Made by a program: the position numbers and the translations under genes
DNA from: Bacteroidia bacterium
Lineage (GTDB): Bacteria; Bacteroidota; Bacteroidia; CAIKAF01
Length of the DNA: 64,000 nt
Assembly: GCA_030427255.1 (NCBI GenBank)
Contig: JAUHWY010000002.1
Location: 124,001 to 188,000 of the forward strand
Direction: 5' to 3'
Part shown: piece after piece, positions 2,008 through 15,309 of the stretch
Layout: every line of letters starts with the position of its first letter
How positions within the stretch are numbered: the stretch's first letter is position 1
The notes under the pieces: generated by a model
Databases searched by the model: none
The model's input: only the letters and a program-made list of their open reading frames with translations
Told to the model about the DNA's origin: nothing

Positions 2008-3405
2008 ATGACCTTAATTCAATCGGTTTCAGGTATTCGTGGCACCATCGGTGGTGTGCCGGGCCAAAATTTAACGCCTCCGGACATGGTGAAGTTTGCT
2101 ACCGGATACGCCCAATGGCTTACACAGCGCTACCCCAACCAAAACATTCACGTGATTTTGGGAAGAGACGCCCGACCCTCCGGTCCCTCTTTGGCAAATA
2201 TGGTGGCGCATACCTTAGCCTTTTGCGGAATACAAGTTACCGATCTGGGCCTCTCTACAACGCCCACCGTTGAAATGGCCGTGCCCGCCTACAAAGCCCA
2301 AGGAGGCATTATTTTAACCGCCAGCCACAATCCCGTGGAATGGAACGCCCTAAAACTCCTCAACGAAAAAGGCGAGTTCCTTTCCGCAGCCGACGGCCAA
2401 GCCCTTATGGAATTGGTGCAGCAAGGCGGAAACCCCTATGTAGAAGTGGCTCAATTGGGAAGCGTTAAGCTGGCCGATGCCTTTATAGACGAACATGTAG
2501 ACCAAATTGTTCAGCATCCTTTCGTCCTTCAAGAATCCATTGCCGCAGCCAATTTTTCCGTCTCCATAAATGGGGTACACTCCTCCGGAGGCGTAGCATT
2601 GCCCATTTTGCTTAAAGCATTAGGCGTAAATCAAATCCATAACCCCTACGGTACACCCACCGGACGCTTCCCACACAACCCCGAACCGCTGCCCGAACAC
2701 CTGGAAGGCTATTGCCGGCAAGTAAAAGAAAGCGGTGCCGACGTAGGTTTTGTGGTCGATCCCGACGTAGACCGACTCGCCATTGTCTGCGAAGACGGCA
2801 GCTTTTTTGGCGAAGAATATACCCTAGTGGCCATGGCGGATTACCTGCTGGCCAAGCGCCCCGGACCCGTGGTTTCCAACCTTTCTTCTTCGCGCGCCTT
2901 GGCCGATGTGGCCGCTTGGCACGGTTGCGAACGCTTTACCTCTGCCGTTGGCGAAGTCCATGTGGTGCAAAAAATGAAAGAAGTAGGCGCCGTGCTGGGT
3001 GGTGAAGGTAACGGAGGCGTTATTTTCCCGGATTTGCACTACGGCCGAGATGCCCTCATTGGCGTAGCACTTTTCCTCAGTTTCATGGCCGAAACCGGAT
3101 TGAAACCAACCCAAATCAGGGCAAAGTATCCGGCCTATGCCATGAGCAAACGCAAAGTGAACCTAGAAGGAAAAGCCCCGGCCGACGAAGTGCTTCAACA
3201 GCTCATCAGCCAATACGCCCAAGAAGACATCCAAACCATCGACGGACTTTGGATAAACCGCGGAAATGCCTGGGTGCACGTTCGCAAATCAAACACCGAA
3301 CCCATCCTTAGAATCTACACCGAAGCTCCAAACCAAGAAATGGCCGATAACTTGGCCGAGGAAATGCTGAACCACATTCAACAACTTAGCCCCAGCAAGG
3401 TATGA
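2008..3405 (+). CDS. glmM: Phosphoglucosamine mutase
   Basis: 465 residues, the normal family length. It interconverts glucosamine-6-phosphate and glucosamine-1-phosphate on the way to UDP-GlcNAc, in the cytoplasm. The four phosphohexomutase signatures are present: the phosphoserine loop LTASHNP (Ser106), the Mg-binding loop DPDVDR (251-256), the sugar loop GGEGNGG (about 331-337) and the C-terminal phosphate loop RKSNTEP. The N-terminus MTLIQSVSGIRGTIGG is typical of the Bacteroidota GlmM branch. The ATG at 2008 is preferred over a TTG ten codons upstream, which lies inside the promoter. The stop overlaps the next start as ATGA, so it is coupled to the cysteine desulfurase. Phosphomannomutase activity cannot be excluded. 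Confidence 0.88.
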   Translation: MTLIQSVSGIRGTIGGVPGQNLTPPDMVKFATGYAQWLTQRYPNQNIHVILGRDARPSGPSLANMVAHTLAFCGIQVTDLGLSTTPTVEMAVPAYKAQGGIILTASHNPVEWNALKLLNEKGEFLSAADGQALMELVQQGGNPYVEVAQLGSVKLADAFIDEHVDQIVQHPFVLQESIAAANFSVSINGVHSSGGVALPILLKALGVNQIHNPYGTPTGRFPHNPEPLPEHLEGYCRQVKESGADVGFVVDPDVDRLAIVCEDGSFFGEEYTLVAMADYLLAKRPGPVVSNLSSSRALADVAAWHGCERFTSAVGEVHVVQKMKEVGAVLGGEGNGGVIFPDLHYGRDALIGVALFLSFMAETGLKPTQIRAKYPAYAMSKRKVNLEGKAPADEVLQQLISQYAQEDIQTIDGLWINRGNAWVHVRKSNTEPILRIYTEAPNQEMADNLAEEMLNHIQQLSPSKV

Positions 3406-4550
3406 ACCGCATTTATTTAGACAATGCCGCAACCACCTGCATGGCCGAAGAGGTAATCCAGGAAATGCAAACCATCATGAGGGATTGTTTTGGAAATCCT
3501 TCCTCCATTCACAGCCATGGGCGCCAGGCACGGGCCTATCTCGAAAAATCCCGACGCCAAATCGCCGAACTCATTGGAGCTGCTCCTGCAGAAATTTGCT
3601 TCACCTCCGGCGGAACCGAAGCCGACAATATGGCCCTGCGCAAAACCGTAGAAGTCATGGGAATTCGGCACATCATTAGCTCCCCCATTGAGCACCACGC
3701 CGTTACCCACACCATCGAAGCCCTCGAAGCCGAAGGAAAAGTGAAGGTAGATTGGATTCCCCACGACCGCCTTGGGCGGCTAAATATGGAAAGCCTTGAA
3801 AATCAACTGGCCCAATCCGAAAAAGCCCTGGTATCGCTCATGCACGCCAACAACGAAATCGGTACCACCATTGACCTGCACGCGGTAGGCCAACTGTGTC
3901 GGCAATACGGGGCGCTGTTTCATTCCGACACCGTCCAAACCATGGGGCATTTCCCCTTTGATGTAAAAAACATGCCGGTAGACATGCTCACCTGCTCGGC
4001 ACACAAGCTGCACGGCCCCAAAGGAGTGGGATTTTTGTACATCGACCACGACCGCGTAAAACTGGCCCCTTTCATTACCGGAGGCGCCCAGGAACGCAAT
4101 TTGCGCGCCGGCACCGAGAACCTTTACGGCATCGCCGGGCTGGCCAAAGCCCTAAGCTTGGCCGTGGAAGGCATGGACGAACATGCCTCCCGCATACGCA
4201 GCCTCAAACGCCGCATGTTGGAAGGCCTGCAAAACGAATTTCCCGGATTGGAATGCAACGGAGTAACCGACGGCACCGATTTATACACCGTGCTCAACGT
4301 AAGTTTTCCGGAAACTCCCGACGCCGAAATGTTTCTCATGAAAATGGACATCCACGGCATATCGGCCAGCGGCGGCAGTGCCTGTTCTTCGGGGGCCCAA
4401 ACCGGCAGCCATGTCTTGGCACATATTGGCGCCCCGGTCGGACGCCCCGGCGTGCGCTTCTCTTTTTCTCGCTACACCACCGAAGAAGAGATTGAGCGCA
4501 GTTTAGCCATTTTGAACAGCATTTGGAAAGGCAAAGCCCAGACGGCCTAA
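3402..4550 (+). CDS. Cysteine desulfurase (NifS/IscS-like class V aminotransferase)
   Basis: 382 residues. It takes sulfur from L-cysteine as an enzyme persulfide for Fe-S cluster or thiolation pathways, using PLP. Visible: N-terminal YLDNAATT, cofactor-binding SGGTEADN (69-76), the Schiff-base lysine in SAHKLHGPKG (Lys202) and the catalytic cysteine loop GGSACSSG (Cys328), which is the short-loop NifS/IscS type rather than SufS. It overlaps glmM by 4 nt and is followed after 2 nt by the metallo-hydrolase, so the three form one transcription unit. No Fe-S scaffold gene is adjacent, so the acceptor is unknown. Confidence 0.88.
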   Translation: MNRIYLDNAATTCMAEEVIQEMQTIMRDCFGNPSSIHSHGRQARAYLEKSRRQIAELIGAAPAEICFTSGGTEADNMALRKTVEVMGIRHIISSPIEHHAVTHTIEALEAEGKVKVDWIPHDRLGRLNMESLENQLAQSEKALVSLMHANNEIGTTIDLHAVGQLCRQYGALFHSDTVQTMGHFPFDVKNMPVDMLTCSAHKLHGPKGVGFLYIDHDRVKLAPFITGGAQERNLRAGTENLYGIAGLAKALSLAVEGMDEHASRIRSLKRRMLEGLQNEFPGLECNGVTDGTDLYTVLNVSFPETPDAEMFLMKMDIHGISASGGSACSSGAQTGSHVLAHIGAPVGRPGVRFSFSRYTTEEEIERSLAILNSIWKGKAQTA

Positions 4551-4552
4551 GC

Positions 4553-5329
4553 ATGTCCGGCCCTCTCAAAATAACCTTTTTAGGCACCGGAACCTCGCAG
4601 GGAGTACCCGTAATTGCTTGCGATTGTGAGGTATGTACCTCCGCCAACAGCAAAGACAAGCGCCTCCGCAGTTCCATCCTGGTCGAAACCGCCAATACCC
4701 GCGTGGTCATCGACACCGGCCCCGATTTTAGGCAGCAAATGCTCCGCGAGCAAGTAAAGAACTTGGATGCCGTGCTGTTTACCCACGAGCACAAAGACCA
4801 TGTGGCGGGCTTGGACGACGTGCGGGCCTTTAATTTCGCCCAAAAGACCGACATGCCGCTCTATTGCACCCCGCAGGTAGAAACCGCCTTGCGCCGCGAG
4901 TTTCACTATGCCTTTGCGGAGAAAAAGTACCCCGGCGTTCCCAACTTGGAGTTGAAAACCATAGGTTTGGAGCCCTTCCAAATTGGCGATGTGCCTATCA
5001 TTCCCATTCAGGTGATGCACCACCGCTTGCCGGTGCTTGGCTTCCGAATTGGTGATTTCTGCTACGTCACCGATGCCAATTACATTGCTCCGGAGGAATT
5101 GCAGAAAATGGAAGGAGCAAAAGCCATAGCCTTGAACGCCTTGCGTTTGGAGCCGCACGTATCGCATTTCAATTTAGCGGAGGCCGTATCGCTCATCCGG
5201 CACCTTGCGCCCGAGGAGGCCTGGTTCACCCACATATCGCATTATTTGGGCCGCCACGAGGAGGTCAGCCAATCCCTACCCAAGGGCATGCAATTGGCCT
5301 ACGATGGCCTTGTTTTGGAGTTTGATTAA
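4553..5329 (+). CDS. PhnP-like metallo-beta-lactamase-fold hydrolase
   Basis: 258 residues starting at ATG 4553; an upstream TTG would overlap the preceding gene and is unlikely. The N-terminus LKITFLGTGTSQGVPV and the Cys pair CDCEVC resemble PhnP, which cleaves cyclic ribose phosphates. The di-metal motif is THEHKDH (His78, His80, Asp82, His83), with later ligands at VMHHRLPVLGF, DANYI and THISHYLGRHEE. Such proteins are widespread in Bacteroidota outside phosphonate operons, so the substrate (a cyclic phosphodiester) is inferred only from family. Last gene of the glmM unit. Confidence 0.8.
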   Translation: MSGPLKITFLGTGTSQGVPVIACDCEVCTSANSKDKRLRSSILVETANTRVVIDTGPDFRQQMLREQVKNLDAVLFTHEHKDHVAGLDDVRAFNFAQKTDMPLYCTPQVETALRREFHYAFAEKKYPGVPNLELKTIGLEPFQIGDVPIIPIQVMHHRLPVLGFRIGDFCYVTDANYIAPEELQKMEGAKAIALNALRLEPHVSHFNLAEAVSLIRHLAPEEAWFTHISHYLGRHEEVSQSLPKGMQLAYDGLVLEFD

Positions 5330-5336
5330 GGGGGGA

Positions 5337-5513
5337 GGGCGCCTAATCCGTCTCCGGCCATTAGCTGCCTTGTGGGGTAGCTACGCCGCTACGCGGAGGA
5401 AAGGAGCTTCCTGTGGTCGCTCTTGCCCCCGCGCCGGCTGAGCACCCCACTTCGGCAGGCTAATTGGCCTCCGCCGGGGCGCTTAAGCTCCGTGTGGGGA
5501 TTTTCGGTGAAAA
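5337..5513 (+). repeat. R1 GC-rich intergenic repeat, copy a (uninterrupted)
   Basis: A GC-rich unit beginning CTAATCCGTCTCCGGCCATT and ending CCGTGTGGGGATTTTCGGTG. Nearly the same sequence recurs at 15364-15681, but split there by an inserted element. The rest of the gap to 5822 is AT-rich; TAAATTTG at 5655-5662 is the only promoter-like match seen, about 160 nt ahead of the next gene. Confidence 0.8.
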
Positions 5514-5822
5514 AAAATCTCTACATCCTTTTGATTAACTATTTGATTATTAAGGGCTTTTTAAGACAAAAATCTCTACATGTTGGGATTGGGGTGGGGG
5601 GAAGGGAAAGTTAGATCCTCAGGTAGACGAATTGGATATTTGAGTCTAAAAGAATAAATTTGAGAAGATAAAATCACCCAAATCCTTATGGCCTAAGCCA
5701 AGTTTTGTTTTCCTTAAGACCTAGAAAGTTGTATCATCAATAAAGTTGTGTAATACAAGGGGAGTTGGTAGAAGTATGCACCTAGAACTAGCAAAAATGA
5801 AGATTCAGGCACAATTTAAAAG

Positions 5823-6812
5823 ATGAAAACTACCATCTTCAATAGAATCGTAACAAACGAGAATTCATTCACTGAACTCTTCAGAAATTTCCTGCGCTTT
5901 AAGGCATTCAGACAGTCATTTCTTGGCCTAATAGAAATTGAACTTGACTCGAGCAAGATAGACTATGACGATTTTGATTCACAATTTTCCATTACAAGGT
6001 TCGGAAGACCTGACCTTGCTTTGATAACTGACGATATTGAGATACTTTTTGAAATCAAAGTATATAATACATCCCTAACGGAGAATCAACCTAAAGGTTA
6101 TTACACCTACCTAAAGGAGGATAGTAAAGCAAGAGCAAAAGGACTAATCCTAATTATTCCAGAAAATTATTACGACCTTAAAACATACAATGCCAATCTC
6201 GAAAGTGTCAAAAAGGATACGGACAACATTTTTACCCAAGTCATTCACTGGGAAACCATTTCAAAACTTATCACCGATAACGAGCTCGAAATCACCTCAC
6301 CATTATTCGCTGAATACTCAGAGTTTATTGTTGACTGGTTTCAACTTCGTACAATTTTTTATGACAGCTTAAACACATTTACTATGTTCGGCAAACGTTT
6401 CCCTGAGAGCCTTAAAAAGACAATGGAAATCATCGATAGCCAATATAATAGATTTGGTAATCAAGGCTATAATCTTAAATGGACAAAAGAAAAGCATTTT
6501 TCCGAGTATGGCTTTTATTTTGAAATGCCGGACGACAATGATGCGTTATTTTTTGGTATTTGGCTTACCTATTGGGAAACATCTGGTAAGCCGGTATGTG
6601 TCGCATTGAAAAGCCAATCATCGGAAGTCATTAAGGCTTTTGAGTCAGGGGTTAGTTCTTGTGAATTATATCAACCAAAGCGCCATGGAGATTGGCTTGT
6701 GGCCTACATAGACGAACAAACACTTATGGAAGAGGAATGTGGCCAAAAGATTTCCAAGACCATTTCGGTTATTTTAGAAAAATTGAACATTCAAGCTTCC
6801 AAGGGCAATTAA
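5823..6812 (+). CDS. PD-(D/E)XK nuclease-fold protein
   Basis: 329 residues, no signal peptide or membrane segment. The N-terminal half carries the restriction-endonuclease-like core: Glu18 in NENSFTELFRNFL, then GRPDLAL (Asp64), the E-x-K pair in EILFEIKV (Glu77, Lys79) and a following Gln in TENQPKGYYTYL (Gln89). This resembles the PDDEXK_4 type of nuclease (not verified). The C-terminal half (about 150-329) has no motif I recognise and includes a Trp-rich stretch LKWTKEKHF. It is the first gene of a set on the same strand with a WYL regulator (106 nt downstream) and an AAA-M41 protein. The catalytic residues look intact, so DNA or RNA cleavage is plausible; the target is unknown. Confidence 0.72.
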   Translation: MKTTIFNRIVTNENSFTELFRNFLRFKAFRQSFLGLIEIELDSSKIDYDDFDSQFSITRFGRPDLALITDDIEILFEIKVYNTSLTENQPKGYYTYLKEDSKARAKGLILIIPENYYDLKTYNANLESVKKDTDNIFTQVIHWETISKLITDNELEITSPLFAEYSEFIVDWFQLRTIFYDSLNTFTMFGKRFPESLKKTMEIIDSQYNRFGNQGYNLKWTKEKHFSEYGFYFEMPDDNDALFFGIWLTYWETSGKPVCVALKSQSSEVIKAFESGVSSCELYQPKRHGDWLVAYIDEQTLMEEECGQKISKTISVILEKLNIQASKGN

Positions 6813-6918
6813 GATTTATAAAACTTGCCAAAACAACGGTTTGGAAAAATGCGGGAAGGGTAAGATTTTCTTCCCACCGGAGTTGTTCGGCCTCGTAGAC
6901 TTTAAGATTTGGAAATAT

Positions 6919-7821
6919 ATGTCGAAACATGGAACAATAAGAAGATACACGTTAATAATCGAAAAGATTGGGAGAAATCAATACCCCACATTTGAATTAA
7001 TAAAAGACTATCTTTTTGAACATGGATTTGAAGTTTCTTCAAGGACAATTCAACGAGATATAGAGCAAATCAGATTTGAATTTGGAATCGAAATTAAATA
7101 TGACCGTTCCCGAAGTGGCTATTGCATTGACACCAAGTCCAGCATCAATATGGACAGTTTTCTACGCTTTTTCGAAATAGTCAACACAGCCGAACTTTTG
7201 ACCGAAAGCCTTAAAGAAAGTAAAGACATACTCAATTACATTTCCTTTGAATCGTACGGAGGCCTGAGAGGGATAGAGTACCTAAAACCTTTGCTTTTCG
7301 CAATCAAAAATCACAGGAGTGTTGCCTTTACCCATGAAAACTTTGATTCCGGAAAACAACGTAAATACTTCGTAAGACCTTATTTGCTTAAGGAATATCA
7401 AAACCGCTGGTACTTGGTTGGAGTAATCGGTGACTCAAATGAATTCAGAACTTTCGGCATTGACCGGATTTTGAATTTGGAAGTTCAAAAAGAGGCATTC
7501 AGGCCAAAGGCAAAGATTAATCCGGCTGAGTTATTTGAAAATACGGTTGGCCTAACCTATTCCTTCAATGAACTGGAAGAAGTAGTTCTTTCTTTCACGC
7601 CACTTCAAGCCAAATATGTGAAATCTTTGCCACTACATAAATCACAAGAAATAATTGAGGATAACGAGAAGGAAGTTCAGGTAAGGTTAAGAATCATTCC
7701 AAACTTCGAATTCAAACAAAAAATCATGATGCTCGGGGAAACTGTCAAAGTTATAGAACCCAAATGGCTTGCGAATGACATCAAGGAAAGTTTAACCAGC
7801 GCATTAAAGAATTACAATTGA
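6919..7821 (+). CDS. HTH-WYL transcriptional regulator
   Basis: 300 residues from ATG 6919 (MSKHGTIRRYTLIIEKI); a longer TTG-initiated form is possible but its extra 26 residues look non-native. The N-terminal winged helix (about 10-70) contains SSRTIQRDIEQIRFEFG, the recognition helix pattern of WYL/DeoR-like proteins. The WYL domain follows: ITFTYE-like VAFTHENF, then RPYLLKEYQNRWYLVGV with Trp-Tyr-Leu at 164-166 and TFGIDRIL. WYL domains bind nucleotide or nucleic-acid ligands and regulators of this design (BrxR, CapW) sit beside anti-phage systems. It lies between the nuclease-fold gene and the AAA-M41 gene, so control of that set is the natural inference. Confidence 0.88.
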   Translation: MSKHGTIRRYTLIIEKIGRNQYPTFELIKDYLFEHGFEVSSRTIQRDIEQIRFEFGIEIKYDRSRSGYCIDTKSSINMDSFLRFFEIVNTAELLTESLKESKDILNYISFESYGGLRGIEYLKPLLFAIKNHRSVAFTHENFDSGKQRKYFVRPYLLKEYQNRWYLVGVIGDSNEFRTFGIDRILNLEVQKEAFRPKAKINPAELFENTVGLTYSFNELEEVVLSFTPLQAKYVKSLPLHKSQEIIEDNEKEVQVRLRIIPNFEFKQKIMMLGETVKVIEPKWLANDIKESLTSALKNYN

Positions 7822-7882
7822 TTTCTCACTTCGACATGCTTTGGCGTAGTAAGACAATAGCTTTGTCAAAAAAAATAAAATT

Positions 7883-9928
7883 ATGGCAAAGCAAATCCAA
7901 GCAAGGCACGAGGAAATAGTGCAAAAACAAGAAATACTGGATAAAGCCAAAGTAACCCTTAAAAGGGAATTCATTGGTATTGACCATGTAATTGATGAAG
8001 TGGTAGGTGCTATTAGTTCATGGTATTTATTTCCTGACTTGCAAGAGAAACCAGTTATTATCAATTTATGGGGGCTAACCGGTGTAGGTAAATCTTCACT
8101 GGTAAGTCGGCTTGCCCAACTTATTGATTTTGGTACCAAGTTCTATCATTTTGACCTAGGCGAAAACGACACGGATGGTTGGACCATAAAAGGTCAACTT
8201 GCAAGAATTTACGAAAACGTCAATGGCTATCCGGTTTTATTAGCTTTTGACGAGCTCCAACATGCCCGTACCCTTGACGAAAACGGAAAAGAAATGGACA
8301 AAACGGCTTCCCGCATTATCTGGCAGCTTTTGGATACCGGCCGTTTTCAGATTTCACGGTACAGTTACCACCTTGAAGAACTCCATGACCTTATGCAAAA
8401 ACTTAGGTATTTGCTGAAAAACGGAGTGCGTGTTTCAAAAGGAAAGGTTATTTCAAAAATTGAGTATTTCATTGAGTATATGGATTTGAGAAGGGAGTAC
8501 AAGAAGATTGAAGGTTCAGAAACCAAGCTGGAAACCAACAATGTACTTTTTGTACCGACCTCCTATCATGAAGACATTTTTTCATTAGCAAAAGAAAAGT
8601 TTTCTACATCTTTTGAAGTAAAAGAAATGTTGATGGAACTTAATGGAAATGAAACCCTCAAATTCTTGTTTGACATTTTCTCCATTGGAAACAGCCCCAA
8701 ACCGGTTGACTGTTCTAAAGGCTTGATTTTTGTACTTGGAAATCTTGATGAGGCATACACCATGAGTAATGACTTCAATCCTGATATGGATGCAGACGAG
8801 TTTCACGAACAATCCATGAAAATCAATGTGCCCATCATTAAGAAAGCCCTCAAAAAGCGATTTCGAAATGAACAGATAGCACGGCTTGGGAATATGCACA
8901 TCATTTATCCTGCTTTCAGCAAAAAATCATTCCAAAAAATTATTGAATTGGAGCTGTCTAAAATTGTTGAAAAAGTTAACGCTTATCAAAAAATCAAACT
9001 CCAATTTGACCAATCGGTGCATGATTTGATATACAAGGAAGGGGTATACCCAACACAAGGTACAAGACCCATTTTCACCACCATTCATCAGATTATCCAT
9101 ACAAAACTTGGAAAGGTTATTTCAGAAATGATTTTAAAAAATCTTGTTGTATCAAGCATTATTTTTAAGGCAAAAGACAACTATATATTTGCCGATTATT
9201 ACGATAAGGAATTGAAAATCCATTCACTCTCCTTTCACCAGCAACTGAACCTTGAAAATCTGAGAAAGAACAAACAAGATGATGTTCAAGCAATCACCGC
9301 AGTACATGAAGCCGGACATGTAATTATTTCAGCCATTCTTTTACATACGGTTCCAGAGGTGATTTATTCAAATACCGCAGAAGCCGGAACAGGTGGATTT
9401 GTTTACACCAAATTCAAATGGAAGTACATCTCTCGGAAAGAAATCACAAACCGTCTTGCCTTATTTCTTGGCGGTCTTGCAGCAGAGAAAATCATATTCG
9501 GAGAAGAAAACATTACAACGGGAGCAGAAGAAGACATTGAGAAAGCCACAAATTTCATTACAGTAATGCTGAAACAATGCGGAATGGGGAAACTGCCAGC
9601 GGCTTATCATGCAAAAGACCCGCAGACAAGAAACTATTTACATGATCAAGGCAGTGAACTATGCAGGGAAGCAGAAACATGGATTTTAAAGGCAATGGCT
9701 CTAGCGGAGGAAACCTTGAAGGCGCAAGAAGTTCTTTTGCTGAAAATGGCAGATTACCTAAGCGATAACCGCCAAATTAATAAACAACAATGTTATCAAC
9801 TGCTGGAAAGATATGCTCGCAACTTTGATGGTGATTCGTTAATTGAAAATGGTGATTTGTTGTTTTACCGGAATCATCTCAAAGAGAAAGTTGCAGTACT
9901 TGAATCAGTAACAGAAAGAACATCGTAA
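7883..9928 (+). CDS. AAA+ ATPase (Clp/ClpB type) fused to M41 (FtsH-type) zinc peptidase
   Basis: 681 residues, soluble: there is no N-terminal membrane anchor as in FtsH. AAA+ part: Walker A GLTGVGKSS (64-72), Walker B VLLAFDEL (118-125), a long insertion (about 160-275), sensor-1 region LIFVLGNLDE (281-290), an Arg-rich stretch KKRFRNEQIARLG (324-336), and a small domain IYKEGVYPTQGTRPIF like the ClpB D2 domain, which has GYDPxYGARPL. C-terminal part: zinc site AVHEAGHVI (His475, Glu476, His479), then LFLGGLAAEKIIFGEENITTGAEEDIEKATN (shown in full here as two blocks, LFLGGLAAEKIIFG and TTGAEEDIEKAT), with Asp551 as third ligand. The natural inference is an ATP-driven protease. Follows the WYL regulator by 61 nt. 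Confidence 0.85.
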   Translation: MAKQIQARHEEIVQKQEILDKAKVTLKREFIGIDHVIDEVVGAISSWYLFPDLQEKPVIINLWGLTGVGKSSLVSRLAQLIDFGTKFYHFDLGENDTDGWTIKGQLARIYENVNGYPVLLAFDELQHARTLDENGKEMDKTASRIIWQLLDTGRFQISRYSYHLEELHDLMQKLRYLLKNGVRVSKGKVISKIEYFIEYMDLRREYKKIEGSETKLETNNVLFVPTSYHEDIFSLAKEKFSTSFEVKEMLMELNGNETLKFLFDIFSIGNSPKPVDCSKGLIFVLGNLDEAYTMSNDFNPDMDADEFHEQSMKINVPIIKKALKKRFRNEQIARLGNMHIIYPAFSKKSFQKIIELELSKIVEKVNAYQKIKLQFDQSVHDLIYKEGVYPTQGTRPIFTTIHQIIHTKLGKVISEMILKNLVVSSIIFKAKDNYIFADYYDKELKIHSLSFHQQLNLENLRKNKQDDVQAITAVHEAGHVIISAILLHTVPEVIYSNTAEAGTGGFVYTKFKWKYISRKEITNRLALFLGGLAAEKIIFGEENITTGAEEDIEKATNFITVMLKQCGMGKLPAAYHAKDPQTRNYLHDQGSELCREAETWILKAMALAEETLKAQEVLLLKMADYLSDNRQINKQQCYQLLERYARNFDGDSLIENGDLLFYRNHLKEKVAVLESVTERTS

Positions 9929-9939
9929 ATGAATTCATG

Positions 9940-10370
9940 TACCCAAGCGAGGTATATGCTATCCACTTTTTAACCAATGCATTACTTGAATTTTGGATAC
10001 GCTATCCACTTTTCAACCAATGCATTACCAAAGCGAGGTATATGCTATCCACTTTTTAACCAATGCATTACTTGAATTTTGGATATGCTATACATTTTTT
10101 GACCAATGCATTACCCAACCGAGGTATATGCTATCCACTTTTTAACCAATTCATTACTAAAATTCCGGATATGCTATCCACTTTTTAGCCCTTCATATAC
10201 CAAATTGAGGTATATGCTATCCACTTTTTGACCCCCTGATATACCAAATTGAGGTATATGCTATCCATTTTTTGACCCCCTATAAACCCAAACGAGGTAT
10301 ATGCTATCCACTTTTAAACCAATGCATTATTAAAACTCCGGATATGCTATGCACTTTTTGACCCTTCCAT
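9940..10370. repeat. Ten-unit 43-bp tandem repeat with DnaA-box-like core
   Basis: The motif GCTATCCACTTTTT recurs with the G at 9958, 10001, 10044, 10087, 10130, 10173, 10216, 10260, 10303 and 10346: a 43-bp period with one 44-bp step. Units alternate between GAGGTATATGCTATCC and GGATATGCTATCC starts, mostly as A-B pairs. Seven of ten keep TATCCAC, the core of the DnaA box TTATNCACA. The array begins just after the AAA-M41 stop. It is not CRISPR: the part between cores is also repeated. Confidence 0.85.
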
Positions 10371-10453
10371 CCGTCAGAAAAGCTAAGTTAATGTCGCTCT
10401 GGCACTCGCATGGCTCAAGAAGGTCCTTGTTGGTGGTCTTATAGAATATAAAA

Positions 10454-10680
10454 GCTCCTAGAATGGCCTCCCGCCCCAAACGGAGGGGCCGACCTTGCCC
10501 CAGGCTAGCCGCACTTTGGCGAGGAGGTGGTTTTTAACCCCCGCAGCCTTAGTGCGGCTTGCTTGGGGCATGGGCGCACCACAGTATAGGGGCGGATACG
10601 GAGCTTGCTTTTCCTATGGAAGGAAGGCCCCAATCAAAAACCTCTGGATGGGTGCTGTCCTGCTTCCTTGCTGATTATGC
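10454..10680. repeat. GC-rich intergenic stretch with long hairpin
   Basis: A GC-rich noncoding block between the tandem array and the DUF1016 gene. It contains an imperfect inverted repeat with arms about 10493-10519 and 10547-10570 (TGCCCCAGGCTAGCCGCAC against the complement of GTGCGGCTTGCTTGGGGCA). It belongs by composition and position with the other GC-rich intergenic units in the window. No gene seen in 9929-10807. Confidence 0.55.
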
Positions 10681-10700
10681 CTAGCCTCAAATTTTACCAA

Positions 10701-10757
10701 TAAAATCCACTAAATTTGATTTAAGGGTTGTTTAAAGAAGGCGACCACTTCAAAATT
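10701..10757 (+). repeat. R3 repeat, copy a (3' part only)
   Basis: CCACTAAATTTGATTTAAG followed by GCGACCACTTCA matches the distal half of the R3 repeat family (full copies at 12.0, 15.2 and 15.7 kb). The IS256-like proximal end is absent here. It sits about 50 nt upstream of the DUF1016 gene. Confidence 0.6.
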
Positions 10758-10807
10758 CACTTAATTGTAACACCTGAAGTTGTCATCACGGAAAAATTTA
10801 TAGATTG

Positions 10808-11995
10808 ATGGATAAAGCCTATAAAAAATTTCTCCAACTGGTTAAGGAGCAAATTGAGACTGCTCAGGTGCGCACGGTAACGGCTGCCAATCGAGAAATG
10901 CTTTTGCTCTATTGGAAACTGGGGCATTTAATTCTTGCCCATCAATCACAGAAAGGTTGGGGCGCCAAAGTGGTTGATTTTTTGAGTGAGGACTTGAAAA
11001 AAGAATTGCCCAATCAAAAAGGTTTTTCAATCAGAAATTTGAAATACATGCGGAAGTTTGCATTGCAATATCCGGTACCGATGATTAAAAAATTGAACGA
11101 TGCTTCCAAACGGCTTTTGCAATTTGAACCCACCCAAAAAAGTATTCAAAATATCGTTTCTCAATTTGTGCCACAGGCTGTTGCACAATTGCAAGTTACT
11201 AATTATCAGTTAGATAAAATCGTGCAACAAGGGGTTGCACAAAATGATGATGCTGCTTTTTTATCGTCTGTTATTTTTAAAATATCCTGGTCGCATCACA
11301 TTATTTTGATGGATAAGGAGCCCCATTTTGGCAAACGACTTTGGTACATGCACCATTGTATCGAGCATGGCATTAGTCGAAATATTTTAGCCATGCATAT
11401 TGAAAGTGGGTTGTTTGAACGACAAGTAGAGACCAATAAAGTCACCAATTTTAATAAAACACTTCCTTCTGCTAAATCTGACTTCGCCAATTATCTACTA
11501 AAAGACCCTTACATCTTCGATTTTGTAGGAGCAAAAGAAAAAGCGGATGAAAGAAATATCGAAGAGCAGTTGACCAACCAAGTTGCCAAATTTTTACTGG
11601 AACTCGGAAAGGGTTTCGCTTTTGTAGCCCGGCAGATGCACTTTGAAGTAGGTGGCGATGATTTTTATGCCGATTTGGTCTTTTACCATACCAGATTGAA
11701 GTGCTATGTCATTGTGGAGCTAAAAGCGCGTGAATTCAAACCGGGTGATGCCAGCCAACTTAATTTCTACGTGAACGTGGCCAATGATGTACTAAAAAAG
11801 GAAGGCGACAACGAAACCATTGGTCTTCTGCTTTGTAAGGGAAAAAATGAAGTGGTGGCTGAATATAGTTTAAAGGGCCTTGGCAATGCACTTGGCGTTT
11901 CTGATTATCAAATTTCGCAAGCCGTTCCCGATCAACTTAAATCTGATTTACCTCAAATTGAAGAGATTGAAAAAGAATTTAAAGATATCGACTAA
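10808..11995 (+). CDS. DUF1016 / YhcG-family PD-(D/E)XK nuclease
   Basis: 395 residues from ATG 10808 (MDKAYKKF). The N-terminal helical DUF1016_N region contains the family pattern LLLYWKLGHLI and KGFSIRNLKYMRKFA. The C-terminal nuclease domain has YADLVFYHTRLKCYVIVELK (Asp289, Glu304, Lys306) and ASQLNFY (Gln317), so the PD-(D/E)XK site looks complete. Proteins of this family are small accessory nucleases scattered in defence islands and mobile regions; the exact role is not established. It stands alone between two copies of repeat R3 and has no obvious partner gene. Confidence 0.85.
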   Translation: MDKAYKKFLQLVKEQIETAQVRTVTAANREMLLLYWKLGHLILAHQSQKGWGAKVVDFLSEDLKKELPNQKGFSIRNLKYMRKFALQYPVPMIKKLNDASKRLLQFEPTQKSIQNIVSQFVPQAVAQLQVTNYQLDKIVQQGVAQNDDAAFLSSVIFKISWSHHIILMDKEPHFGKRLWYMHHCIEHGISRNILAMHIESGLFERQVETNKVTNFNKTLPSAKSDFANYLLKDPYIFDFVGAKEKADERNIEEQLTNQVAKFLLELGKGFAFVARQMHFEVGGDDFYADLVFYHTRLKCYVIVELKAREFKPGDASQLNFYVNVANDVLKKEGDNETIGLLLCKGKNEVVAEYSLKGLGNALGVSDYQISQAVPDQLKSDLPQIEEIEKEFKDID

Positions 11996-12010
11996 TGGAT
12001 AAGACAATCG

Positions 12011-12116
12011 GTAATGCCTAAAAGGTGTGTCAAAGGCTTCAGTACCCCAGCAAAACCGAACACCAAGAACCACTAAATTTGGTTTATATTATTTAAAGAA
12101 ACCGACCACCTCAGGA
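12011..12116 (+). repeat. R3 repeat, copy b
   Basis: Starts GGTAATGCCTAAAAGGTGTG and ends CGACCACCTCAGG, with the conserved core CAAAACCGAACACCAAGAAC inside. It matches copies at 15203 and 15694 over about 105 bp. The first 25 bp resemble IS256-family terminal inverted repeats (inference). It lies upstream of the HigBA module. Confidence 0.75.
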
Positions 12117-12261
12117 GTGAAGTGGTTCATAATGTCCGTTGGACAATCGATTGAACGAACAAATGCAGTAACCCTTCTGCAAGATGAGGTTTCAAAAATA
12201 CTGGAACATCACCTTGATTAGTTCGGAAATATTTGATACTTTTATATGTAAATAAAAATCA

Positions 12262-12603
12262 GTGAGATTATATGGAATTAGAATCCTTGAAAAACTGAAA
12301 CGCAAAAATCGAGGAAACGCACCACTTACAAACGCGATTGATGCATTAATTAAAACGATTGAAAAAGAAAATTGGAAAAACCCAAATGAACTGGTTAAGT
12401 CAAGAAGCGATGCTGATTCTGTTCATAGCGAAGGTTTTTACTTTTTTAATATAAAAATTCATAGAACAATGATTTTCATTGAATTTGAAGACGATAGAGC
12501 CACGGTAATTTGGGCAGGATCACATAAAGATTATGAGAAAATATTCCAAAATAACCGGAATGTAATTGAGAAATGGTTAAGGGCGCACAGCTGGATAAAA
12601 TAA
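12262..12603 (+). CDS. higB: HigB-family mRNA interferase toxin
   Basis: 113 residues starting at a GTG at 12262; no in-frame ATG lies upstream. HigB-like blocks: RILEKLKRKN at the N-terminus, then ENWKNPNELVKSRSDADSV, FYFFNIKIHRTMIFIEF and the C-terminal WAGSHKDYEKI, corresponding to the family pattern FVGTHxEYDKI. HigB toxins are RelE-fold ribosome-dependent endoribonucleases. The toxin gene precedes its antitoxin by 7 nt, the toxin-first order typical of higBA. The catalytic lysine and histidine pattern appears kept (Lys in SHKDY). Confidence 0.82.
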   Translation: MRLYGIRILEKLKRKNRGNAPLTNAIDALIKTIEKENWKNPNELVKSRSDADSVHSEGFYFFNIKIHRTMIFIEFEDDRATVIWAGSHKDYEKIFQNNRNVIEKWLRAHSWIK

Positions 12604-12610
12604 TAGGATT

Positions 12611-13165
12611 ATGAAAAACTTGATTGATATAAGAGATGTAAACCAGATCAAAGAATTAAGAAACGAATATGATTTGGAAAAGGCCTCATTACTGGCGAGA
12701 AAACTAAGATGGATGATAAAAGAGGATGCTTCGTTGATACCTGTTAGAGAAAGATTGCTTGACTTAATGGAAGCCTATGAGCATAAGCATTGGAGGGATG
12801 AAAGCAGTATTTCTGATAAGCAAATGGAAGACTCCGATAAAGCAGAAGAAATTATAAATAAAGAAAATCAGTTTTATACTCGAAGAAAAGAAGCGATCAG
12901 GAAGAAACTGAAGCAATATGATATGACTCAACAGGATTTGGGTGCATTGCTTGGGCACAGCAAATCCTATATTTCTGAATTGGTAAATGGGGTGTCAAAC
13001 TTCTCAATGAAAGATTTGGTTATAATACACCGGATTTTCAAAATAAGCTTTGATGTTTTAATTCCTACATTCATTGAAGTTGAAACAAGAGATGAACTGA
13101 AACGGAATATATTGAGATTAAATAAGCCCAAATTAAAATTAAACAAAGTAGATTTAGATGCTTAG
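12611..13165 (+). CDS. higA: HigA-type antitoxin with XRE helix-turn-helix
   Basis: 184 residues. The C-terminal half holds a Cro/C1-type HTH: IRKKLKQYDMTQQDLGALLG then SKSYISELVNG and FSMKDLVIIHRIF (about residues 95-150). The N-terminal about 90 residues are charged and probably form the toxin-binding part. It follows higB directly, so it should neutralise HigB and repress the pair. At 184 residues it is longer than minimal HigA proteins (about 100), matching the long-form antitoxins with an N-terminal extension. Confidence 0.8.
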   Translation: MKNLIDIRDVNQIKELRNEYDLEKASLLARKLRWMIKEDASLIPVRERLLDLMEAYEHKHWRDESSISDKQMEDSDKAEEIINKENQFYTRRKEAIRKKLKQYDMTQQDLGALLGHSKSYISELVNGVSNFSMKDLVIIHRIFKISFDVLIPTFIEVETRDELKRNILRLNKPKLKLNKVDLDA

Positions 13166-13295
13166 AATTGGGTTTGCAGGCTACCTACAACCGCAGGTAT
13201 AGTATGTCCGGGAGTAAGCTTCCCCAAAAATCGAACTAGCAGGAAATTCCAACAGGTTCGAACGGAAAGAAAGAGGAAGAAGGTTGTTAGTACAA

Positions 13296-13350
13296 AATGT
13301 CAAGTTTTTAGCGCCAATAACTTGACATTGCAAAACCATGGCTATCTTTG
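13296..13350 (+). promoter_or_regulatory. abiE promoter with palindromic operator
   Basis: A perfect 11-bp inverted repeat, AATGTCAAGTT (13296-13306) and AACTTGACATT (13319-13329), covers the upstream promoter element TTGACA. The -7 box TATCTTTG follows at 13343-13350 and ends 4 nt before the abiEi ATG, implying a leaderless message. AbiEi antitoxins are known to autorepress by binding inverted repeats, so this is the likely operator. Confidence 0.75.
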
Positions 13351-13354
13351 CATT

Positions 13355-14083
13355 ATGGCATTGGCAAAAGAAATACGCAAACGAATACAACAACTACCCG
13401 AAGGGAAAACCTTTGGGTATGGCGATTTGCGTATTGCCAAAGAAGACTATACCACAGCCGCCAAAGCCTTAGAACGGCTGCAAAAAGAAGGATTGATAAA
13501 GAAAGTTTCCAAAGGGGTGTTTTACAAACCTGAGCAAACCGTATTTGGCGAACTAAAACCCGATTACGGCGAATTGCTCCGCCCTTATTTGTTTGAGAAC
13601 GGTAAGCGAGTGGCTTACGAAACAGGCACTTCACTTTACAATCGTTTGGGTTTAACTACTCAAATGGCATTCCGCATTAAAATTGCCAGTCGAGGAAAAC
13701 GCATCAACATCAATCGGGAAAACCTAAAGGCTGATGCCGTAAAAAGTTATGCCGAAGTGACCGATGGTAATTGGGAGACATTAGGCTTGTTGGATGCATT
13801 CAAAGACATTAAAAAAATTCCTGATTGCTCTGTGGCTCAGGCAATAAGTAGACTAAGGGCCATTGTAAAAGAGCTAAACGAAATGCAAACCGCATGCTTA
13901 CTCAAATATGCTTTGCGATATCCACCAAGAGTGCGGGCATTAGTAGGCGCCATATTGGAAAATTTAGGCAGCAAAGCACAAGGCATTGAAAAGTTAAAAG
14001 AGAGTTTAAACCCACTAACTACCATAAAATTGGGCGTAAAGGAGAGTGAATTGCCCACAAAATCGAATTGGTATATCGAATGA
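13355..14083 (+). CDS. abiEi: AbiEi-type antitoxin (winged-helix, DUF6088-like)
   Basis: 242 residues from ATG 13355; the longer reading frame upstream runs through the promoter and operator and is rejected. The N-terminal winged helix shows KEIRKRIQQLPEGKTFGYGD, TTAAKALERLQKEGLIKKVS and KGVFYKP, the usual AbiEi/DUF6088 start. The middle contains RVAYETGTSLYNRLGLTTQM. It is the type IV antitoxin of an AbiE system and also a DNA-binding autorepressor. Its stop overlaps the toxin start as ATGA, so the pair is translationally coupled. Confidence 0.85.
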   Translation: MALAKEIRKRIQQLPEGKTFGYGDLRIAKEDYTTAAKALERLQKEGLIKKVSKGVFYKPEQTVFGELKPDYGELLRPYLFENGKRVAYETGTSLYNRLGLTTQMAFRIKIASRGKRININRENLKADAVKSYAEVTDGNWETLGLLDAFKDIKKIPDCSVAQAISRLRAIVKELNEMQTACLLKYALRYPPRVRALVGAILENLGSKAQGIEKLKESLNPLTTIKLGVKESELPTKSNWYIE

Positions 14084-15069
14084 GGCTGCACGAAAACATA
14101 GCGCTTTATAAGGATGCTATTCGGTTTACTGCCCAAGAAATGAAGCTAAGGCCCGAATATGTAGAAAAAGACTATTGGGTGACCTTTGCTTTGTTTACCA
14201 TTTTCAATAATGAAATAGGCAAAGACACCGTATTCAAAGGCGGTACCTCACTGTCTAAATGTTACCAAATGATAGACCGATTTTCTGAAGATATTGATTT
14301 GGTGGTGTTAAGGCGTGAAGGAGAAACAGACAGCAAGTTAAAATCAAAATTAAAGACTGTAAGCAAGGTTGTAGAAAGCATTTTACCGGAAGTTCCTATT
14401 GAAGGCATCACCCATAAAATGGGGATGAATAGAAAAACGGCACATTCCTACAACAAAGAATTCAAAGGCGATTATGGGCAAGTAAGAGACGTCATCATTT
14501 TAGAATCTACTTGGTTGGGTTATTATGAGCCTTACACCACCAAAAGCATCATTTCATTCGTAGGGCAAATGATGGTAGATACTCAACAAACCCAAATTGC
14601 TGAAGAAAATAATTTGCTTCCTTTTGATGTAATGGTCTTAGAGCCTATCAGAACCATTTGCGAAAAAATAATGAGCTTGGTTCGTTTTTCTTATGGTGAA
14701 AATCCAATAGAAGATTTAAAGAAAAAGATACGCCACACCTACGATTTGCATCAGCTACTGAAACAAGAGGTGTTTTCAGAATTCTTTCATTCAAAGTCTT
14801 TCGATGAAATGCTTTTGAAAGTAGCCAATGATGATGTGGCAAGTTTCAGGAATAATAATAAATGGCTCATGCACCACCCAAAGGAAGCCCTTATCTTCAA
14901 AGAATTGGATAGGGTTTGGAGTGAAATAAACCCTACTTATTCAGCTGTTTTTAAGAGGTTGGTTTATGGCGAATTGCCAAATGAAGAGGATATATTAGAA
15001 ACGTTAAAAATGATTCAAGAGCGATTGCAATCCATTTCGTGGACAATAATAGTTGAACCCCAAAAGTGA
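14080..15069 (+). CDS. abiEii: AbiEii nucleotidyltransferase toxin
   Basis: 329 residues from the ATG inside ATGA at 14080. The DNA polymerase beta-like nucleotidyltransferase core is clear: KGGTSLSK (53-60) and EDIDLVV with Asp71 and Asp73 as metal ligands. C-terminal helical part contains MVLEPIRTICEKIMSLVRFS and KIRHTYDLHQLL, the usual AbiEii motifs. AbiEii toxins of this fold (with MenA relatives) modify tRNA by adding nucleotides, causing growth arrest during phage infection. Catalytic residues look complete. Confidence 0.87.
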   Translation: MRLHENIALYKDAIRFTAQEMKLRPEYVEKDYWVTFALFTIFNNEIGKDTVFKGGTSLSKCYQMIDRFSEDIDLVVLRREGETDSKLKSKLKTVSKVVESILPEVPIEGITHKMGMNRKTAHSYNKEFKGDYGQVRDVIILESTWLGYYEPYTTKSIISFVGQMMVDTQQTQIAEENNLLPFDVMVLEPIRTICEKIMSLVRFSYGENPIEDLKKKIRHTYDLHQLLKQEVFSEFFHSKSFDEMLLKVANDDVASFRNNNKWLMHHPKEALIFKELDRVWSEINPTYSAVFKRLVYGELPNEEDILETLKMIQERLQSISWTIIVEPQK

Positions 15070-15202
15070 AATTCACAGCGGCGAAATAAGAGCAAGAATT
15101 GAAGTAAGCATTCCGCCAAGCCCATATTCCTAACCTCCAAAAGGCCTCTCAACTTTGGGCAAACCAAAAAAATGTGTCCAAGAAAGATCTAAAACAAGAG
15201 GC

Positions 15203-15309
15203 CGGTAATGACTAATAAAATGTGAAAAGGCTTCAGTGCCCCAACAAAACCGAACACCAAGAACCACTGAATTTGATTTTAATTTGCCTAATAAGGCCGA
15301 CCACCCCAG
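15203..15309 (+). repeat. R3 repeat, copy c
   Basis: Starts GGTAATGACTAATAAAATGT, contains CAAAACCGAACACCAAGAAC and ends GGCCGACCACCCCAG. Same orientation as the other three copies. It falls in the 800-bp gene-free stretch between AbiE and ParDE, which is filled by R3, R1 and R2 repeats. Confidence 0.75.

Follow-up and report, generated by a model that had tools for sequence, protein, structure and literature searches.

The genes at 5823-9928 of the window (the whole 64-kb stretch of DNA that was analysed) raise two questions: whether a nuclease-like gene, a WYL regulator and an AAA-M41 protease together constitute one defence or stress system, as an earlier sequence-only reading had proposed, and what the protease would do in its host. 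We confirmed the co-directional arrangement described in that reading; all three ORFs lie on the plus strand, with intergenic gaps of 106 nt (nuclease/WYL) and 61 nt (WYL/AAA-M41). The locus comprises the following features:

5823..6812, plus strand: ORF for a putative PD-(D/E)XK nuclease of 329 aa (motif E18-D64-E77-K79); it adjoins the module, and its membership is not supported
6919..7821, plus strand: WYL regulator (wHTH - WYL - WCX) of 300 aa with an ATG start (Pfam; sister-locus pairing)
7883..9928, plus strand: AAA-M41 protease of 681 aa (Pfam, alignment, structure model)
6898..9938, plus strand: two-gene DNA block common to the window and Bacteroidetes bacterium HLUCCA01 (blastn, 82.6% identical)
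5593..13196, no strand: variable island of 7.6 kb carrying the module, missing from one congener (genome comparison)
9932..10367, no strand: about ten 43-nt units in tandem, immediately 3' of AAA-M41 (a genome-wide repeat, outside the module)

The sequence-only reading had described the third gene product as a ClpB-like AAA+ protein fused to an FtsH-type M41 peptidase with an intact HEAGH motif and third ligand, and this description was borne out. Pfam recognized M41 (E=3.1e-19) and ClpB_D2-small (E=1.2e-9), and the domain order is a helical N-terminus, a ClpB-D2-like AAA+ core that begins near residue 30 and carries an inserted segment at about residues 160-275, a small domain and the M41 peptidase. 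Neither the ClpB N domain nor the D1 ring was found in the 681 aa by Pfam or in the model. The structure model (pLDDT 90), together with searches of solved structures (Foldseek 4lj4/8zrs), assigned the motor to the Clp/HSP100 D2 type (ClpB NBD2, Skd3) and the peptidase to an FtsH-like fold. The AAA region matched ClpB/ClpC/Skd3 and not FtsH, and the NCBIfam FtsH_fam model scored 63 bits against a cut-off of 600. AAA-M41 thus resembles FtsH in its M41 peptidase with HEXXH and a third zinc ligand, but differs in its AAA+ clade and in having no membrane segment; it shares the AAA+ core and D2-small domain with ClpB NBD2, Skd3 and the Clp unfoldases, but has a peptidase on the same chain, an insert of its own and no D1 or N domain. 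In an alignment with 81 relatives, HEAGH (H475, E476, H479) and the third ligand D551 were invariant, as were Walker A/B, the sensor N287 and R328/R334/R395. Since motor and peptidase residues are both invariant, both engines of AAA-M41 should work, and the protein is predicted to be catalytically competent as an active ATP-driven protease. The N-terminal helix (residues 2-29) is highly charged in sequence and model, so AAA-M41 looks soluble. A second M41 protein, of FtsH length, is encoded elsewhere in the genome of the window, and AAA-M41 is not the housekeeping copy.

Comparison of the window with HLUCCA01 yielded 82.6% identical DNA over 6898-9938 only, a block running from 21 bp 5' of the start of WYL to 10 bp 3' of the AAA-M41 stop codon; in HLUCCA01, a GmrSD type IV restriction gene begins three bases after AAA-M41. 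Among 83 loci compared, 44 had a WYL gene within six genes of AAA-M41, 16 had RtcB nearby and 23 had neither (some of them on short contigs). The WYL gene was upstream of AAA-M41, often directly, in 44 of the 47 orientations counted, and the distance matrices of the two proteins were correlated (r=0.61, 0/2000 permutations). By these sequence comparisons, WYL and AAA-M41 are a conserved, mobile two-gene module whose members travel together.

The family is sparse, occurring in about 1-7% of sampled genomes, mostly Bacteroidota. Of 395 genomes from the phylum, 5 encode AAA-M41, as do 4 of 60 nearer relatives, the genome of the window being included in both counts; it is missing from the five other members of the genus. 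A pattern search of an 85,000-species collection recovered 283 relatives, the best 80 of which were examined. No full-length relatives were found on plasmids, phages or viral contigs; the plasmid and phage matches were mainly of the M41 part, to FtsH-like proteins. Among the 395 genomes, the closest copy (84% identical) was in a genome outside the class of the window, which indicates horizontal transfer of AAA-M41 as judged from sequence identity.

The regulator is of the defence-associated type, as proposed, with WYL (E=2.5e-14), WCX (E=3.9e-11) and a weak HTH_11 match in the order HTH-WYL-WCX by Pfam. The WYL protein of one sister locus (L019) is 86% identical to that of the window, and the closest solved relatives by sequence are PafBC, followed by other WYL-domain regulators. 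Upstream of AAA-M41 we located a composite site with two parts:

7832..7846, plus strand: palindromic operator CGACATGCTTTGGCG (CGNCA-N5-TGNCG), putative WYL site (44 bits by weight matrix, promoter box included)
7858..7865, plus strand: -7 promoter element TAGCTTTG, 11 nt 3' of the operator and 17 nt 5' of the start codon (motif comparison)

The element TAGCTTTG at 7858..7865 fits TAnnTTTG, the -7 consensus of Bacteroidota. The composite, CGNCA-N5-TGNCG followed by TAnnTTTG, was found 5' of AAA-M41 in WYL loci. Its two parts are 11 nt apart at 17 of 18 sites in the first set, and at most others. A weight matrix recovered 80 sites in 1.3 Mb, compared to 3-7 in shuffled sequence; the matrix was built from 17 sites, which are circular among the 80, and the remainder are not. 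The strict 15-mer was present 5' of AAA-M41 in 26 of 44 WYL loci compared to none of 16 RtcB loci (Fisher p=1.7e-5, loci counted regardless of kinship), with a shuffled rate of 0.0005 (0.05%) per upstream region; the strict copy was missing in 18 of the 44 WYL loci. The operator-bearing proteases have a median identity to each other of only ~40%. Where the recognition helix of the WYL protein is ATFERDKKTL, the operator is CTATCA...TGATAG instead of CGNCA-N5-TGNCG. In another family, seven genomes also contained the composite, at 3-9 copies per genome, and in three of these seven one copy precedes another WYL gene. The presence of the operator with WYL, its change with the recognition helix and its location before WYL genes in the other family make it likely that the WYL protein binds the putative operator CGNCA-N5-TGNCG. 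As a separate observation, composites in the other family also precede genes that resemble, by eye, peptidoglycan-cutting and phage-like genes.

How the regulator would act on AAA-M41 is suggested by its relatives. CapW and BrxR are repressors, and the sites bound by CapW overlap the -10 box (PMC9122588); BrxR homologues often adjoin type IV restriction (PMC9122601). Like CapW and BrxR, the module has a wHTH-WYL-WCX protein beside defence genes and a palindrome at a promoter; unlike them, its WYL protein adjoins a Clp-type/M41 protease, the presumed target. In contrast to the CapW site (PMC9122588), the operator of the window precedes the -7 box by 11 nt, a spacing that is near-fixed. PafBC acts at promoters by sigma adaptation, fills the usual -35 contact position and is activated by ssDNA (PMC11804915). 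The WYL protein of the window shares the WYL-WCX architecture of PafBC and DriD but differs from them in its single local operator in the genome, its Bacteroidota host and its presumed target, a protease. None of 18 sites carried TTTG 17-23 nt 5' of the -7 box. The upstream position of the operator, its near-fixed 11-nt spacing and the missing TTTG are equally compatible with a PafBC-like activator; from site architecture, WYL may repress AAA-M41 as in CapW/BrxR, and PafBC-type activation also fits.

The place of the nuclease ORF was evaluated against the same data. The E18, D64, E77-x-K79 pattern on which the PD-(D/E)XK call was based is present, and the fold assignment is weak: the only Pfam match was PDDEXK_4 at E=0.049, below the cut-off, profile comparison aligned just the PD-(D/E)XK core at low probability, and the AlphaFold model from the single sequence was uninformative (pLDDT 42). 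BLASTP found no homologue of this nuclease in 86 sister loci; relatives in the 395 genomes amounted to three short partial matches (residues 160-235), and none were found on plasmids or viral contigs. The ORF is also outside the DNA block shared with HLUCCA01. The sole good operator copy in the window is that at 7832-7865, before AAA-M41, and a genome search returned this composite as the only exact, full match in the genome; no operator was found in the window 5' of the nuclease or 5' of WYL. Because it has no homologue in the 86 loci, lies outside the shared block and is without an operator, the nuclease at 5823-6812 is, by sequence comparison, a local passenger and no part of the module. 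The proposed set of three therefore stood only in part: the WYL/AAA-M41 pair co-occurs and shares a DNA block, whereas the three genes together seldom co-occur. A dedicated nuclease/WYL/protease defence system could be argued from the co-directional genes with their short gaps and from the recurrence of PDDEXK_4-type nucleases beside other AAA-M41 copies, but it is contradicted by the comparative data, namely the missing homologue in every sister locus, the DNA homology that ends 21 bp before WYL and the missing operator, and we regard it as extremely improbable. The related suggestion of a protease guarding or activating the neighbouring nuclease was unsupported for the nuclease of the window; in sister loci, nuclease genes of other kinds carry this operator.

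Further operator copies in the sister loci precede DUF2779, DnaB_C, PDDEXK_4, GmrSD, McrBC-operon and Mrr genes. Among 125 proteins encoded near WYL/AAA-M41, the leading families were PDDEXK_4 (7), DUF2779 (6), DnaB_C (4), GmrSD (4), DUF2130 (3), RNase_T (3) and McrBC (2), and PDC-S26 was another of the defence families near the pair, with GmrSD, McrBC and PDDEXK_4. None of the near-gene families was among the leaders of 105 distant genes from these loci, and methyltransferases appeared there instead; PDDEXK_4, DUF2779, GmrSD, RNase_T, McrBC and DUF2130 were enriched near compared to far, and several had an operator copy of their own. In one locus (L040) the order is WYL, a small gene, an McrB-like ATPase, McrC, RNase_T and AAA-M41, and in another (L048) it is WYL, GmrSD, a GmrSD-cluster gene, RNase_T and AAA-M41.

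The second setting of the family is RNA repair, with RtcB in 16 loci, PrfH in 11 and KptA in 6. In this setting AAA-M41 follows RtcB and PrfH, and Dysgonomonas and its relatives also have KptA and TatD; some AAA-M41 genes are directly after rtcB-prfH and before kptA. RtcB-linked copies fell into at least two separate clades of the tree, one within the larger WYL-linked group, suggesting that AAA-M41 changed setting more than once. A strong PrfH match (E<1e-70) was present in 27 of 395 genomes, and AAA-M41 was beside PrfH in none of these 27, so the RNA-repair link is optional, a lineage trait and not a rule. We found no RtcB in the genome of the window, which differs in this from the RtcB-PrfH operons that contain some other AAA-M41 genes. 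Accessory genes of the RtcB-PrfH operon given in the main text of a release-factor review (PMC6514570) include TPR, pol-beta and zinc-ribbon genes, and we found no protease of the AAA-M41 type among them. The presence of the family in RNA-repair clusters is a hint that the two settings share one role, the limitation of nuclease damage.

Two rival explanations are affected by this second setting. In the first, AAA-M41 would degrade the WYL protein or a cofactor, in the manner of ImmA-type proteases acting on their repressors, and the local regulon would thereby be induced. The tight pairing and co-evolution of AAA-M41 and WYL would suit such a role; it is nevertheless very unlikely, since the 16 RtcB-linked loci have neither a WYL neighbour nor the operator and degradation of the regulator cannot be the general function of the family. 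In the second, the protease would serve stress quality control under DNA-damage control by WYL, clearing proteins that are misfolded, aggregated or truncated, among them the peptides that PrfH releases from damaged ribosomes. The likeness of the motor to ClpB NBD2 and Skd3, both disaggregases, the PrfH and RtcB neighbours and the response of the WYL relatives PafBC and DriD to ssDNA (PMC11804915) are consistent with this possibility. However, the family is rare and patchy (5/395 genomes) for a function of the housekeeping type, AAA-M41 is without the ClpB N-terminal and D1 domains, and the recurrent company of restriction nucleases would be left unexplained. We consider it a serious rival and quite unlikely.

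The surroundings of the module bear on a third possibility. In one congener (G398), window positions 4386-5592 are joined to 13197-15291 and the 7.6-kb block at 5593-13196 is absent, and in two other congeners sequence that matches the window at 18.1 kb comes closely after the gene located at 5.3 kb; the block is therefore a variable island. It contains the WYL/AAA-M41 module, DUF1016, HigBA and AbiE. Profile matches in the window agreed with the DUF1016 and toxin-antitoxin neighbours previously described (DUF1016/YhcG, HigB with an HTH antitoxin, AbiEi/AbiEii and ParD); no tRNA genes were found in the 64 kb. The module might encode a direct antiviral or abortive effector, in which WYL would induce the protease on infection, phage or essential host proteins would be degraded and the nearby nucleases would act independently under the same switch. 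Its location in a variable defence block, the movement of a self-contained pair between distant Bacteroidota and the control of immune operons by CapW/BrxR relatives (PMC9122588, PMC9122601) all speak for this explanation, while the repeated RtcB-PrfH-KptA placement without WYL fits protection better than killing and AAA-M41 matches no PADLOC model. It is the other serious rival, and we consider it rather unlikely.

We favour instead, with a probability a little under one half (about 0.48), a damage- or infection-responsive WYL protein that switches on a soluble ATP-dependent protease which clears host-damaging nuclease complexes. The WYL protein would bind the operator at 7832-7846 and sense a damage or infection signal, which in the studied relatives PafBC and DriD is ssDNA (PMC11804915), and this sensing would change transcription of AAA-M41. 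The protease would then unfold and degrade particular protein targets. The least certain step is the nature of these targets: in WYL loci they may be stand-alone restriction enzymes, and in RtcB-PrfH loci toxins that cut RNA or jammed products of ribosomes. With self-endangering nucleases in one setting and RNA-repair genes in the other, a protease that removes nuclease complexes or stalled products is the simplest explanation, and host-damaging nuclease complexes are our best guess for the substrate. The protease would limit self-damage in a manner functionally like that of ClpXP on HsdR. For EcoKI, proteolysis of HsdR by ClpXP constitutes restriction alleviation (PMC4231737), so that an AAA+ protease takes part in controlling a restriction nuclease, as proposed here for AAA-M41; the difference is that housekeeping ClpXP acts on EcoKI, whereas AAA-M41 is, we infer, a dedicated protease. 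Two further points limit the favoured explanation. The module of the window comes without a nuclease that carries the operator, which makes clearance of nucleases unnecessary there. The nuclease families beside AAA-M41 are mutually unrelated, and the protease would have to recognize a signal common to them. Extending it to the whole family is tentative and somewhat doubtful: AAA-M41 may partner two Bacteroidota programmes and in both clear nuclease-bound or damage-stalled protein complexes. One programme would be the regulons in which WYL controls stand-alone nucleases for DNA restriction, the other the RNA-repair islands of the RtcB-PrfH-KptA type, of which some have additional tRNA arrays.

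The sequence-only reading knew of no named system with this gene set, and we likewise found none for the WYL/AAA-M41 pair. Pfam, NCBIfam and PADLOC (2023) have no model for the whole AAA-M41 protein, no PADLOC system matched, and a search of the literature on M41 with WYL, RtcB or anti-phage functions found no account of it. We found no earlier description of a defence or stress locus that is under presumed WYL control and has a Clp-motor/M41 protease as its constant member. Such a locus offers a defined regulator, operator and protease as a directly testable set, and the operator provides a sequence handle with which to list the genes of one regulon in Bacteroidota defence islands. One protease family links restriction control and RNA repair, and should AAA-M41 prove to clear nucleases, it would serve as a dedicated factor for restriction alleviation, acting on enzymes without an adjacent protective methylase.

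The variable hotspot of the window (5.3-18.1 kb) is flanked by a gene of the metallo-beta-lactamase fold on one side and an ABC transporter on the other; in congeners, these flanks are near each other in two, and AbiE alone is found in one. The following feature lies directly 3' of AAA-M41, the gene of the Clp/HSP100-type protease with an FtsH-type M41 peptidase:

Tandem repeat array, window 9932-10367, with a 43-nt unit present some ten times

Five more similar arrays (77-87% identity) were found elsewhere in the same genome.

Among the compared loci, one clade carries tRNA genes close to AAA-M41 or the RNA-repair marker RtcB, several as arrays of 3 to 8:

L081:2016-2284, near RtcB or AAA-M41
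L098:1494-1903, near RtcB or AAA-M41
L084:13270-14117, near RtcB or AAA-M41
L090:16413-17435, near RtcB or AAA-M41
L080, L082, L085 and L089, 5' of AAA-M41

This proximity suggests that they are replacement tRNAs accompanying RNA-repair genes. L080, L082 and L085 also encode large proteins (574-665 aa) with a WYL-like part, whose ORFs are divergent from AAA-M41; their clade adjoins the RtcB-linked copies. At locus L015, a DUF4407 gene for a predicted membrane protein (2609-3697) is directly followed by a divergent AAA-M41 copy (3697-5574), possibly a membrane-tethered version.

The same operator-promoter composite as that of AAA-M41 was observed at 3-9 copies per genome within a single family, in the seven genomes G012, G095, G210, G265, G277, G308 and G331 (loci L137-L165). 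A WYL regulator gene lies 3' of the composite at L148, L151 and L165, and other copies precede genes of peptidoglycan-cutting or phage-like appearance. The copies in L137-L165 possibly represent an undescribed WYL regulon governing prophage or tail-like clusters.
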